Of a stretch of DNA of 40,633 nucleotides, positions 8,498-13,343 are shown in pieces. Made by a program: the position numbers and the translations under genes. Numbering within the stretch: position 1 is the first letter of the stretch; every line of letters begins with the position of its first letter. Origin of the DNA: Pirellulales bacterium (lineage in GTDB: Bacteria; Planctomycetota; Planctomycetia; Pirellulales; Thermoguttaceae); NCBI GenBank assembly GCA_013360685.1, contig JABWBD010000014.1, positions 1 through 40,633 of the forward strand. The letters are read 5' to 3'. The notes under the pieces are model-generated. The model worked only from the letters and a program-made list of their open reading frames with translations, was not told the origin of the DNA and did not search any database.

Positions 8498-9565
8498 CTA
8501 ACCCCGCAGTTCAAACCCCAATCCCGGCTGGTCGTTGGGAAAGAGCGTGCCGGCGTGGAGTCGAACGGCGCCGTCGCCGGGGTCGCCTTCCAGGCCGAGG
8601 TGGCCGTCGAGGTCGGCGTAGGCAACGCTGGGGTCGGCCAGGGCAACGTGCAGGCCGGCGGCGATGCCCAGGGCCGATTCGTCCATGCTGCCGATCATCA
8701 CGTCGAGCCTGGCCGCGCGGGCAACGGCGCAGATCTTCAGGGCCTCGGCGATCCCGCCCACTTTCATCAGTTTTACGTTGAGCATGTCGACCAGGTTGTC
8801 GCGCGCCAGTCGGAAGGCGCCGCGGAGCGTGGTCACGCTCTCGTCGGCCATGATCGGCACGGAGCCCCGGCTGGCCACGCGGCCCAAGAGGTCGGGGTGG
8901 GCCTGGATCGTCGGCTGTTCGAGCGTTTCCAGGCCGGCGTCGCGGACCTGGTCGAGAAACCGCAGGGCCTGTTCGGCGGTGTAACCCTGGTTCGCGTCGA
9001 ACCGCAAGGCGATTTCACTGCCGACCGCTTCGCGCACCTCGCGGACCCGTGCCACGTCCGCCTCGACGTCCAGCCCTCCCTTGATCTTCAGCGCCTGAAA
9101 GCCCTGGTCAACGAAGTACCGCGCCCGCTCGACGGTCTCGTCCACCGGTTCGATGCCGATGGTCACGCTCGTCCGGATCGACTCGCGGTACCCGCCGAGC
9201 AACTTCCAGAGGGGCAATTCGCAGCGTTTGCCGACAATGTCGTACAAGGCCATGTCGACGGCCGCCATGGCCGACGGTTCGTCGCGGAGCAGCGGCTCGA
9301 GCCGTTCGCGCAGGAGTGCCGACCGCAAGGGGTCGACTCCTTTCACGACAGTCTCGACCATGGTCCGGAGCGTGTTGAGCACGCCCTCGGCGGTCTCGCC
9401 AGTGGCCTGCTGGTCGGGTGCGGCGCAGCCGCAGCCGACGACCCGCCGGTCGGTCACAATCCGCAGGAAGACGTTGGTCGTCGACTCCAGCACGTCGTAG
9501 GCGGCCGTATAGGGCTCGGTGAGCCGCATCGTCACCGGCCATGCTTCGACGCGAGTGATTTTCAT
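8498..9565 (-). CDS. Enolase-superfamily enzyme, dipeptide epimerase / muconate-lactonizing type
   Basis: The start is placed at the ATG 9563-9565 (MKITRVEAWPVTMRLTEPY), where the family begins; a GTG-type start 66 bases upstream adds an untypical arginine-rich tail. The protein has 355 residues, the usual length. The N-terminal capping domain is followed by a barrel with the KxK acid/base pair (K160, K162 in QALKIKGG), metal ligands D190 (RFDANQGY), E216 (LETLEQP) and D241 (MADES), the second-side lysine K265 (NVKLMKVGG), and GSMDES at 292-297. All key residues are present. These features suit the Ala-Glu/dipeptide epimerase and chloromuconate cycloisomerase branch. Substrate cannot be read from sequence; a role in recycling cell-wall peptides or in acid-sugar metabolism is possible. 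A good promoter candidate lies upstream. Confidence 0.88.
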   Translation of the reverse strand: MKITRVEAWPVTMRLTEPYTAAYDVLESTTNVFLRIVTDRRVVGCGCAAPDQQATGETAEGVLNTLRTMVETVVKGVDPLRSALLRERLEPLLRDEPSAMAAVDMALYDIVGKRCELPLWKLLGGYRESIRTSVTIGIEPVDETVERARYFVDQGFQALKIKGGLDVEADVARVREVREAVGSEIALRFDANQGYTAEQALRFLDQVRDAGLETLEQPTIQAHPDLLGRVASRGSVPIMADESVTTLRGAFRLARDNLVDMLNVKLMKVGGIAEALKICAVARAARLDVMIGSMDESALGIAAGLHVALADPSVAYADLDGHLGLEGDPGDGAVRLHAGTLFPNDQPGLGFELRG

Positions 9566-9657
9566 TGCCGTGCCTCGCCTGTTCCGTCTCGCGGAGCCAC
9601 GCGCAAGATTGCAGCCCCCTCTCCTGACCATCCGGCGAGTGGTTGTTCGCCCAGTCT

Positions 9658-9686
9658 TGTTTAGCCGAGGAGGGGAAACGTGTCAA
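9658..9686 (-). promoter_or_regulatory. Sigma-70-like promoter candidate for the epimerase gene
   Basis: On the minus strand a perfect TTGACA (9681-9686) is followed after 17 bases by TAAACA (9658-9663). It lies about 95 bases before the preferred ATG at 9565. The -35 is full consensus, while the -10 is only partly matched. Confidence 0.42.
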
Positions 9687-10024
9687 CCGGGCAGGTCCGG
9701 CAATGCGGCAAGCTGGTGTGGCAAGACGTAGCCAAGCTGTTTTCGGGCGCCCGTGTCGGAAGTTCCGGCAGGGGGCCGTCGTTTCAGGTTTGGATTCGAT
9801 TGTCAAAAGGGGGGAAGGCCACATGAAGGGTGACGTAAATCGCGAGTCGCCCGACAACGCCGCGGAGTCAAAGGCCCCATGCATGCGTGGAAACTCCATG
9901 CGCGAGAACCGGAAGAGCCAGGCGGTTCCCACATCGGATGGCGATGCGGGACGGTCGGGGAAGGCGCAATGCCGTACGCCCGACATGCACGCCTCCTGGC
10001 AGTCGGACGGTCCCGTAGTACCTG
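9687..10024. other. Intergenic stretch without a supported gene
   Basis: Short frames on both strands run through this stretch, but none has a plausible start, composition or recognisable motif. It lies upstream of the epimerase gene and ends at the direct repeats and palindrome that follow. Confidence 0.5.
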
Positions 10025-10066
10025 GGTCAAGCAGCGGGGTCAGGTCAAGCAGCGGTCAAGCAGCGG
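10025..10066. repeat. Three direct copies of GGTCAAGCAGCGG
   Basis: Exact 13-bp copies lie at 10025-10037, 10043-10055 and 10054-10066, the last two sharing two bases. They run straight into the left arm of the large palindrome, whose outer bases belong to the same core. This looks like stuttered ends of a REP-type element. Confidence 0.8.
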
Positions 10067-10134
10067 GGTCAGGCTTTAGATATCAACTTTGACTCCGCGC
10101 CCCAAACTTGATATTTAAAGCCTGACCCCGCTGC
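10060..10134. repeat. REP-like palindrome, 32-bp arms
   Basis: The left arm (10060-10091) and right arm (10103-10134) are inverted copies with only two mismatches, around an 11-base centre. The arms start with GCAGCGGGGTCAGGC. This sequence matches a type of dispersed palindrome I associate with planctomycete genomes. It lies about 120 bp beyond the stop codon of a truncated transposase of the RAYT type, the class of enzyme that mobilises REP elements, so the pair is probably one element and its decayed transposase. Confidence 0.85.
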
Positions 10135-10254
10135 CGCGTAGTATCTACCAGCTTGGCGAGAACAGCCCACCCTTTTTTCGACAGAGATCGCTCGTGTCGG
10201 AAACGTCCGTCGCTACCGAAGCCTTCAATCAAAAAACCGCCCCTGGCGGCTGCG

Positions 10255-10896
10255 CTATCGGTATGCGCTTAGCTCGAAACTCTCCGTTCCCACATGACAG
10301 CTTTTCTTCCACATAATGGCCGTTAAGGTTTTGCGAACGGCCTCCGTGGCCGTTTCGACCCGCGAAACCGCCGTGCCTACGCCGCCGTGCCCTTGATAAC
10401 CCAAGGCTCGTGCAATCTCCGCAGCGGAATAGCCATATTGACGGCGCGCCAAGTAGGCCGCGACCGAGCGGCTGATGTCGTCGCACCGCGATCCCGCCGA
10501 CCAGCCCTGGCGCCCGCCGCCAAAGTGCGCCATCACCGCGCTGAGGATCTCCTCCAGCGAAGGACGAGGCCCTTCTCTTCGAAGCGAATCGACGTAGGCA
10601 GCCCGCACCGTTCCGCCCTGGCGAGGACAGACCATGCCTTCCCCCATTGCCGCAACCCCCTGGTGCCATGAGCGCGGAAGAACGCCCGGCAATCTCTGTC
10701 CGCAGCGCGGTCCGCAAGACCATTTCTGCAACGCCCCGCGATCGGCTGATGCCAACTTACGAAAATCCCAAGAGCCCCAACTTATGATCAGCACTACACT
10801 TACAGCCACGCCTCTCGTCCGAGATGTTGCACCACCGTCGAAGCTTGTCCCGAAAAAACGCGTCCACATACGCCGGCCGAACCGCGCTCTTTTCAC
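10255..10896 (-). pseudogene. Truncated REP-associated tyrosine transposase (RAYT), DnaA-like C-terminal domain only
   Basis: The frame encodes 213 residues. The last 120 or so look conserved: GTVRAAYVDSLRREGPRPSL, then EEILSAVMAHFG, then SVAAYLARRQYGYSAAEIAR and ALGYQGHGGVGTAVSRVE. This is the helix-turn-helix resembling domain IV of DnaA that ends some IS200-like RAYT transposases. The Y1 transposase domain that should precede it, with its HUH motif and catalytic tyrosine, is missing. The first 80 residues have no recognisable motif and biased composition. I therefore read this as a remnant whose N-terminal half was lost or replaced; whether the rest is expressed is unknown. The adjoining palindrome at 10060-10134 supports this. 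An alternative is a free-standing DNA-binding protein derived from the domain. Confidence 0.6.
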
Positions 10897-10994
10897 TCGA
10901 CTCTGGCCAACTTTGCCGAAGACGCGTGCTATCCTTTACCGATGGCAATAGAAGACACCATAAGCCGCACTGTCGGCCCACGGAGTGCTCGACC

Positions 10995-11186
10995 ATGATG
11001 GACGCGATCAACAGCGTTTTGCAGGCCAGGCAGGCGGAGTTGGATAGCCGGATTCAGTTCGCGGTCGCCAAGAAGGCCCTTGACGTCATGAAAACCCAGG
11101 GCAATGCAGTTGTACAATTGATCGAAGCTGCCGGCCGCGCCGGCAAAGCTGAGGGGGCGGGCGAGCATTTCGACGCAACCGGCTGA
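10995..11186 (+). CDS. Small YjfB-like (putative motility) protein
   Basis: The 63-residue frame begins MMDAINSVLQARQAELDSRI and continues with QFAVAKKALDVMKTQGNAVV and QLIEAAGRAGK. The length and the KKALD...QG..VVQLIE pattern match the YjfB family of short proteins, found in Bacillus and in many planctomycetes and named putative motility proteins although their role is not established. The start is supported by GGAG about ten bases before the ATG. Two ATG codons are adjacent, so the protein may begin one residue later. No flagellar gene is nearby. The next gene on the same strand starts 111 bp downstream and may or may not be co-transcribed. Confidence 0.72.
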   Translation: MMDAINSVLQARQAELDSRIQFAVAKKALDVMKTQGNAVVQLIEAAGRAGKAEGAGEHFDATG

Positions 11187-11297
11187 CCAGCGGCATCCAA
11201 CCCAACGGCCCTGAGACCACAATTGCCGCTTAAGGCATTGGCTTGGGGTTGTCTCGTTTCTTGCGATTCTGCGAGTTACTGCCATCGGAGACGCTCT

Positions 11298-12353
11298 ATG
11301 ACCGAGACGGTCATCTGGATGATCTACGGGGCGAACGGTTATACCGGGCGCAGAATCGCCGAAGAAGCGGTCCACCGGGGCTTTCGTCCGATTCTGGCGG
11401 GACGCAGCCAATCCAAGCTCGATCCGCTGGCCGATGCCCTGAAGTGCCCGGCGCGGGCGTTCTCGTTGGACGACGTGAGTCGAGTCGCGTCGGAACTTGC
11501 GGGATGCCGGGCAGTGCTCCACTGCGCCGGCCCCTTTTCGGCCACGTCGAGGCCGATGCTCGACGCCTGCTTGCGGGCCGGCGCGCACTATCTCGACATC
11601 ACCGGCGAGATCGACGTGATCGAGGCGGCCGCGGCCCGGCATGAGGAGACGGTCCGGGCGGGAATTTCCGTCATTCCGGCGGTCGGGTTCGACGTTGTGC
11701 CCAGCGATTGCCTGGCCGCGATGCTCGCTGCCCGCCTGCCCGCGGCCACCCATCTCCAGTTGGCCTTCAGCGGCGTCGGGCCGCCCAGCCCGGGGACGAC
11801 CAACACCATGCTTGAACGGCTGCACGGCGGAGGGCTGGTCCGCAGCAATGGGCAGATCACTCGAGTGCCGATCGTCTGGAAAACGATGGAGATCCCTTTC
11901 CGCGAAGGGAGGCAAACGGCGGCGACGATCCCTTGGGGCGACGTTGCCGCGGCATGGTATACCACGGGCATCCCGAACATCGAAGTCTACATGGCGATGC
12001 CGGCAGCGCAGATCCGCTGGCTGCGGCGGCTGCAGGGGCTGCTGCCGCTCTTGAAAAACCGGCTGGCGAAATCTCTGGCGAGGCCAGTCTTGCGGCGAAT
12101 GGTAGGCCGCCGAAGCGCCGCGCACCCGGACGGCGCGAGCTCGTTCTGGGGCCGGGTCTTCGACGCCGAAGCAAACTCCGTGGAGGCGACGCTCACCGGC
12201 CCGGGCGCCTATCGGCTCACCGTTCTCACGGCATTGGAATGCCTTGAACGCACGCTTGCGGCCAAGGCGCCTGTCGGCTTCTCGACGCCGTCCAGGGCAT
12301 TCGGCAAGGAGTTCATCCTTGAGGTGTCCGGTATGGAGATCGAGTGGCGCTAA
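11298..12353 (+). CDS. Saccharopine dehydrogenase-like NAD(P)-binding oxidoreductase
   Basis: The ATG at 11298 is chosen because GGAG lies eight bases upstream and the protein then begins directly with the Rossmann fold, giving 351 residues. Residues 6-20 contain IYGANGYTGRRIAEEAV, the glycine-rich dinucleotide site, followed by PILAGRSQSKLDPLADAL, where the arginine after glycine suggests NADP preference. VLHCAGPFSATSRPMLDACL and AGAHYLDITGEIDV are hallmarks of the saccharopine dehydrogenase-like / trans-acting enoyl reductase family. Family members reduce varied substrates, including lipids; the one here is unknown. No signal peptide or clear membrane span is seen, so it is likely cytoplasmic or peripheral. 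A hairpin repeat follows the stop codon and faces the convergent gene. Confidence 0.88.
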   Translation: MTETVIWMIYGANGYTGRRIAEEAVHRGFRPILAGRSQSKLDPLADALKCPARAFSLDDVSRVASELAGCRAVLHCAGPFSATSRPMLDACLRAGAHYLDITGEIDVIEAAAARHEETVRAGISVIPAVGFDVVPSDCLAAMLAARLPAATHLQLAFSGVGPPSPGTTNTMLERLHGGGLVRSNGQITRVPIVWKTMEIPFREGRQTAATIPWGDVAAAWYTTGIPNIEVYMAMPAAQIRWLRRLQGLLPLLKNRLAKSLARPVLRRMVGRRSAAHPDGASSFWGRVFDAEANSVEATLTGPGAYRLTVLTALECLERTLAAKAPVGFSTPSRAFGKEFILEVSGMEIEWR

Positions 12354-12354
12354 A

Positions 12355-12431
12355 AGGCCCTAACAGAACTCCGACTGCCCTCACCCCCTGCCCCTCTCCC
12401 GAAACGGGAGAGGGGAGTTGAGTTAGGGCCT
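12355..12431. terminator. Nested inverted repeat between convergent genes (dispersed repeat, copy 1)
   Basis: An outer 10-bp inverted repeat (AGGCCCTAAC 12355-12364, GTTAGGGCCT 12422-12431) encloses a perfect 11-bp hairpin (CCCCTCTCCCG 12391-12401, loop AAA, CGGGAGAGGGG 12405-12415). It begins at the end of the oxidoreductase gene and ends at the end of the convergent gene, so it could serve both as a terminator. A 45-bp core (12378-12422) recurs almost unchanged at 20887-20931. Confidence 0.65.
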
Positions 12432-13343
12432 CTAAGAATTCCTGTCGAGGCCGAAGTTGTGCTCGATCGGGTCATGCTTTCCCGCCACAATCTCCCTGGG
12501 CATCCAACGATACTTGTAGTTGTGGATGAGTGCGGCAGGGTCGTCGAAATAGTTGGCCATCTGCTGCTTGTCGAGCTCATCGATGAAACCATCGGGAGGG
12601 CGTTGGGCGTGGCGCGAGATGAGCAGCGCGTAGTACTTGCCCGTCAACAGCAGGCCGCTGAATTCGCCCGAGGCACTAGCTCGCAGATAGATGCCGCCCA
12701 GGTTCTGAATGCCCTGGATCGTCCGATGGCTTTCCGGCGGCATCGGGTCGTGGGGACGGATGTCGGTCACCGAGAGCTTCTTGTCCGGCCGTTTTTCCTG
12801 AGGCAGGAGGATGACGACGGCCCCTTCGTCGCCGATGAGTCGCCCCGTGCCCGGATCGTAAACAAGCCTTCCGTCAACGAGTACTTCTTCCTTCGCGCCG
12901 GCCCCGCCTTCGGCAAAGAGTTCGTAGGAGGCATCGCCGCGTCCGACCAGATAGCCGGCGGCGAAGGCGACGATCGCAATGGCGGGAAACAAGACGGCCT
13001 GGGCATAGAGGGTCTGCCGAGGGTAGACCACCAGGTCGGCGGAGGCCCGGTGAGTCCGCGGAGACGCAGGTCTGGGTGAGAGCGAAGCAGCCGCGGCACG
13101 TTTCGGACGCGAAGGGGACTCCAGCGGCACGGGATCGTCGTCGTAGATGGCCAGGTCCGGGACTTCCGTGGCCATCTCGGGCCCTTGACTGAGTTGTCCC
13201 ATGGCAAGAGCCGCGGCCGCAGCCTCTTCGCTGGGGACCGTCTGGAAAAAGCCGCACTTGGGACACTGGATCTCCGTGCCCGCCTTGCGGCTTGCGATGC
13301 TCAGGAATCCCCTGCACTGCGGACAATAGAAGCGAATCGCCAT
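12432..13343 (-). CDS. Zinc-ribbon protein with one membrane helix, unknown function
   Basis: The start is set at the ATG 13341-13343, where the protein opens MAIRFYCPQCRGFLSIASRK. A longer frame adds 33 residues with no sensible signal. The 303-residue protein has two CxxC knuckles (CPQC at about 7-10, CPKC at about 26-29) typical of a zinc ribbon, then a low-complexity linker rich in Ala, Ser, Pro and Arg. A single hydrophobic helix lies at about 112-132 (VLFPAIAIVAFAAGYLVGRG). The C-terminal domain contains VDGRLVYDPGTGRLIGDEGA followed by VVILLPQEKRPDKK, and later residues predicted to be mixed alpha/beta. This architecture (zinc ribbon in the cytoplasm, helix, extracytoplasmic domain) recurs in planctomycete proteins of unknown role. 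The neighbour upstream is a small membrane protein. Confidence 0.82.
   Translation of the reverse strand: MAIRFYCPQCRGFLSIASRKAGTEIQCPKCGFFQTVPSEEAAAAALAMGQLSQGPEMATEVPDLAIYDDDPVPLESPSRPKRAAAASLSPRPASPRTHRASADLVVYPRQTLYAQAVLFPAIAIVAFAAGYLVGRGDASYELFAEGGAGAKEEVLVDGRLVYDPGTGRLIGDEGAVVILLPQEKRPDKKLSVTDIRPHDPMPPESHRTIQGIQNLGGIYLRASASGEFSGLLLTGKYYALLISRHAQRPPDGFIDELDKQQMANYFDDPAALIHNYKYRWMPREIVAGKHDPIEHNFGLDRNS

Follow-up and report, generated by a model that had tools for sequence, protein, structure and literature searches.

TnpA-REP subclass 2.1 has C-terminal Bac_DnaA_C-like domains and has been equated with TIRYT (PMC6006769). TIRYTs are terminal-inverted-repeat associated tyrosine transposases. 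Many of the inverted repeats flanking their genes share GGGGWSAS, and for TIRYT / TIRtron these terminal inverted repeats (TIRs) have also been described at sites without the gene, where they form dimers and clusters (PMC3733652). REP / RAYT (REPtron) falls in the same transposase superfamily; its short palindromes, which are GTAG-tagged and exceed 100 copies per genome, are thought to be mobilised by the Y1 enzyme (PMC2817692).

We examined a window of 40,633 nucleotides (the whole stretch of DNA analysed), which is contig C509 of a 563-contig, 8.0-Mb, 77%-complete genome (G000) whose related named records are Pirellulales metagenome bins. The comparison set consisted of 147 related genomes, and G001 is a same-genus genome. 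Genome-wide counts were obtained from pattern and BLAST searches; since the source genome is in many pieces and incomplete, the numbers of copies are minimum values. As in TIRYT / TIRtron (PMC3733652), the intact relatives of the transposase remnant found here are RAYT-like HUH/Y1 enzymes with long TIRs carrying GGGGWSAS (here GGGGTCAG), and TIRs also occur as dimers or clusters apart from the gene; unlike that system, the window copy has neither a catalytic domain nor TIRs of its own, and the adjoining TIR dimer belongs to another clade. Likewise, the intact relatives show the domain order of TnpA-REP subclass 2.1 (2.1.2; PMC6006769), namely Y1 followed by a C-terminal DnaA-domain-IV-like helix-turn-helix, but the window copy consists of the C-terminal domain only. 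The locus shares with REP / RAYT (PMC2817692) the transposase superfamily and the idea of short palindromes mobilised by a Y1 enzyme; its end motif and the arrangement as TIRs are different, and its copies are few.

No fewer than five relics make up the mosaic that separates the left neighbour gene from the saccharopine-dehydrogenase-like right neighbour (Table 1). From its sequence, the locus reads as abutting pieces of mobile DNA: a group II intron, a TIR dimer, an element end, a transposase tail and a dispersed repeat. The transposase tail is very probably a dead, 5'-truncated TIRYT gene in an intergenic mobile-DNA graveyard, lying beside a TIR dimer from a different TIRYT clade.

Table 1. 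Features of the interval and its left neighbour, in window coordinates.
Feature	Position	Strand	Basis
Left neighbour gene	8498-9631		Mandelate-racemase/enolase family
Degenerate group II intron, 5' part, cut where the palindrome cluster starts	9810-10024	+	91% identical to G001:C517:6539-6753 (L108)
Three overlapping GGTCAAGCAGCGG copies, a partly duplicated left TIR edge	10025-10066	+	Sequence itself
Palindrome, two head-to-head TIRYT TIRs (GGGGTCAGGCTTTARATATCAA.. / inverted); MITE-like dimer, interior deleted, C247 (L004) clade	10060-10134	.	26/27 bp to the C247 TIR
213-aa open frame, chance read-through over three parts (repeated-element end, TIRYT remnant, dispersed repeat)	10255-10896	-	Random-sequence frames
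End segment of repeated element	10136-10309	.	72-73% to four G001 contig starts; 96% to C205
TIRYT remnant, DnaA-domain-IV-like C-terminal part	10315-10593	-	Profile positions 221-313 of 319, E 6.3e-23
Non-coding dispersed repeat of ~410 bp, truncated copy (without left part), by chance forming the frame's N-terminal half	10581-10855	+	At least 17 copies aligned

The initial annotation had recognised, in a frame about 120 bp from a palindrome, the DnaA-like domain of a RAYT that has lost its Y1 domain, and both points were borne out. Residues 115-180 of the frame matched Pfam Bac_DnaA_C (E 3.6e-4; 20.9 bits, below the cut-off of 31.5 bits), and the domain family profile retrieved DnaA chains from the PDB (E 1.4e-6 for 1l8q/2hcb and 2e-5 for 1j1v). 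An AlphaFold2 model of the remnant (mean pLDDT 79) gave a TM score of 0.79 to DnaA domain IV (1j1v and 3pvp), with modest Foldseek E values of 0.005-0.05. The remnant, about 90 aa long, thus resembles DnaA domain IV in both sequence and predicted fold. Its best matches in the 147 related genomes were ~47-52% identical and mostly the C-termini of ~320-aa proteins, and it was 53-56% identical to L056/L057. Profile comparison tied the remnant to intact TIRYTs (Table 1) as well as to DnaA, and intact relatives exist within the same Pirellulales family with their HUH-Y1 domain: they are 317-334 aa long, start with MARPLRIEF..., carry NHxHLF (the NHxH motif) and YIHLNPVR (the Y-motif), and end in the remnant's domain. 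The remnant therefore has the C-terminal DnaA-like helix-turn-helix of TIRYT / TnpA-REP subclass 2.1, homologous to that of intact members. As the domain matches both transposase C-termini and DnaA, its homology identifies it as the DnaA-like C-terminus of such a tyrosine transposase, ~320 aa long when complete.

What is missing from the remnant is the HUH motif, the catalytic Tyr, the last ~6 residues and the stop codon. Eleven relatives, 10 of them full-length or nearly so, were compared by tblastn with window positions 9000-13000. Ten matched solely at ~10300-10600, with nothing but the C-terminal ~90 residues aligning; L004, the one from the other clade, had no significant match in this range, and no piece of Y1 (HUH motif, catalytic tyrosine; PF01797) was detected there with any of them. 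Consistently, the profile of the full-length relatives matched the window only at 10315-10593. Simple interruption of a transposase by the dispersed repeat was rejected, since no Y1 part was found beyond the repeat in this range.

The claim that the frame "keeps only" the DnaA-like domain held for the homology, but not for the frame, a chimera in which two unrelated repeats are joined to the domain. Only about 90 of its 213 codons derive from the transposase; its N-terminal half (approximately residues 13-105) is dispersed repeat DNA, which also supplies an in-frame ATG at codon 84, and its last ~18 codons, up to a stop 120 bp off the palindrome, belong to another repeated element. In random sequences with the same dinucleotide make-up (n = 500), the longest frame averaged 190 codons, and 88 of the 500 reached the observed 226 stop-free codons. 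The length of the frame is therefore what chance produces in GC-rich DNA, and is no evidence for a gene. A PHROGs "terminase small subunit" match (E 0.077) was dismissed as a generic helix-turn-helix match. The case serves as a warning that long open frames between genes in GC-rich DNA may be chimeras of unrelated repeats.

The palindrome itself is as first described, with 32-nt arms (10060-10091 and 10103-10134) that are 94% complementary around an 11-nt loop, and with three exact direct copies of its outer core, GGTCAAGCAGCGG, at 10025, 10043 and 10054. Its region folds as single-stranded DNA at -32.8 kcal/mol, compared with -16.7 +/- 2.35 for shuffled sequences (z = -6.8; none of 200 shuffles was as stable). 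The suggested genome-wide scan showed that it is not unique. On C247, an intact TIRYT of 334 aa has an upstream inverted end with which the end sequence of the palindrome, GGGGTCAGGCTTTARATATCAAGTTT, agrees at 26 of 27 bp; its identity to the downstream end there is 82% over 40 bp. Besides flanking this intact transposase, the end sequence occurs on C301, where a second similar TIR dimer splits another broken TIRYT copy, and on C52, which has single ends. Since its ends are nearly those of the intact C247 TIRYT of this genome and recur at other loci, the palindrome is, as judged from them, a dimer of TIRYT terminal inverted repeats. Its initial designation as a REP was not upheld: a GTAG-type REP was ruled out, because the core is GGGGTCAG, found at just four loci in the 8.0-Mb, 77%-complete genome, and there is no high copy number. 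Rfam microRNA matches on the palindrome, far under gathering scores, were set aside as palindrome artefacts. Since its inner sequence matches the ends of the C247 clade, the palindrome looks like a non-autonomous element of that clade.

The remnant belongs elsewhere in the family. It was placed outside the C247 clade in the tree (support 97), and the members of its own clade with readable ends mostly have GGGGTCAGG(C/G)CG(G/T)(G/T)ATTAG.. (GGGGTCAGGCCGGGATTAGG or close variants), whereas C247 has GGGGTCAGGCTTTAAATATTAA; the GGGGTCAGG core is common to all these TIRYT clades. TIR dimers of the remnant's own clade are found elsewhere in the genome, on C278 and C442. In intact elements, the downstream TIR lies 3-14 bp past the stop in most cases in which both TIRs were found, but beside the remnant the TIR dimer lies 120 bp past the stop, with foreign DNA between, and is of the other clade. 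Because the inner sequence of the palindrome matches another TIRYT clade, it is probably not the cognate partner of the remnant. The earlier suggestion that the surviving domain might still recognise this palindrome thus found no support, given the apparent clade difference. C247-type TIRs also lie within broken TIRYTs of the other clade at G000:C301 (L023:395-595) and G057:C339 (L080, ~1408), much as one lies beside the window remnant, and such TIRs may possibly prefer GGGGTCA-like ends as a target.

The close spacing of palindrome and remnant, together with the GGGGTCAGG core common to both clades, could also be explained by a single former element: the remnant's TIRtron would have decayed where it stood, the palindrome being what its ends collapsed to. 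This is very unlikely: the inner TIR sequence of the palindrome is that of the C247 clade, its edges abut the intron relic (ending at 10024) and the next element (starting at 10136) almost exactly, and that unrelated element separates it from the remnant.

The initial annotation had left a choice between plain decay and recruitment of the domain. Decay fits and is the best reading, and recruitment is unsupported, with no positive evidence for it. From what is known of the family, the intact enzyme would be an HUH/Y1 single-strand transposase whose nicking and joining of DNA takes place at its TIR hairpins, with DNA binding conferred by its C-terminal DnaA-like helix-turn-helix. In the window, the catalytic part is gone and what survives passes into an unrelated repeat at either end; the palindrome, as the identity of its ends suggests, was most likely left as a non-autonomous element by a C247-like transposase. 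Other broken TIRYT copies are common, both in this genome and among its relatives: C132 (with stops), C301 (with the TIR dimer inside), C52, L065, L067 and L080.

Recruitment would mean that the DnaA-like domain is translated, possibly from the codon-84 ATG available in frame from the dispersed repeat, and either binds TIR sequences, in a repressing or architectural role, or interferes with the intact C247 transposase. We consider this extremely unlikely, even though the domain is intact across ~90 codons, keeps the family's conserved positions and has a predicted DnaA-domain-IV fold. The N-terminal half of the frame is non-coding repeat and its C-terminus has been replaced, the neighbouring palindrome is from another clade, and no conserved stand-alone domain was found in the 147 related genomes or in GTDB contigs; in the 147 relatives, a match lay in a full-length transposase, a broken copy or a DnaA-like protein, or else at a contig edge. 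Nor is the site conserved even in the same-genus genome. The left neighbour gene is 81% identical to a copy in G001:C461, but other genes follow that copy and the right neighbour was not found next to it, which leaves neither an intact nor an empty site for comparison. Equally slim is the chance that the fused frame is expressed, its DnaA-like domain acting as a TIR-binding repressor of a related active transposase, in which case fusion of the tail with the repeat would have provided the start codon.

The remnant contains no stop codon. On its terminal branch, the ratio of changes at positions 1+2 to those at position 3 is 0.21, compared with 0.08-0.41 for intact relatives (a range that omits one zero-length branch), a comparison made weak by its 88 codons and their saturated third positions. 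The open remnant and its intact-like codon pattern suggest little neutral drift, so that either the truncation would be recent, if neutral, or the piece would still be constrained. Taken as decay, the locus represents ordinary mobile-element turnover in a repeat-rich Pirellulales genome. The analysis also contributes clear intact TIRYT cases with clade-specific terminal repeats in Planctomycetota.

The remaining relics were traced through their copies. The G001 counterpart of the intron segment (Table 1) matches the Rfam group II intron family RF02005 (E 5e-50) and RF00029, and the RF02005 match within the window itself scores 15 bits only. Another copy, on C413, carries a truncated RVT_1 reverse transcriptase and shares 75% identity with the window segment. 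The repeated-element segment was matched at the starts of contigs C437, C447, C327 and C564 of G001 (L107, L106, L110 and L109); three of these have the segment in common and differ from each other beyond it. Its part at 10214-10306 accounts for the match to C205 of the source genome. These contig starts represent a multi-copy element end (..GCTTTTCCCCATGGCAGGCTT), of which the window has a diverged copy; on G001:C564 it adjoins a gene that by eye looks like cas1.

The dispersed repeat, judged by its alignments, is not a coding family, because DNA identity among the copies (67-81%) exceeds translated identity (mostly 31-67%) in most copies and several contain stops. Full-size copies are present at G000:C413:11209-11620 (L026/L027) and C136:312-720 (L015/L178). 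In about eight copies, the left module of the repeat contains a conserved sigma70-like promoter, TTGAAATTGGGCCAC-N7-TATACATACG, and the right ~140 bp gave no Rfam match and no consensus fold as a structured RNA. Several copies face unrelated genes (by eye ferredoxin-, Gfo/Idh-, methyltransferase- and sulfatase-like) from a position ~60-430 bp upstream, and the repeat may possibly be a promoter-leader module. On G000:C52 (L152:1486-1960) its left edge (AGGTCTCCCGACCTCGCC) adjoins a truncated TIRYT C-terminus, and on G000:C413 (L026:1490-1703) this edge adjoins a group II intron reverse transcriptase, again truncated. Downstream of the repeat in the window, a small ORF at 10996-11187 (+), MMDAINSVLQARQAELDSRIQFAVAKKALDVMKTQ..., resembles the putative motility protein YjfB (PF14070, E 2.5e-5, just under the cut-off). 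Farther on, a short repeat at 12347-12438 has dozens of matches at 84-95% identity in many related genomes and is probably a common planctomycete interspersed palindrome.
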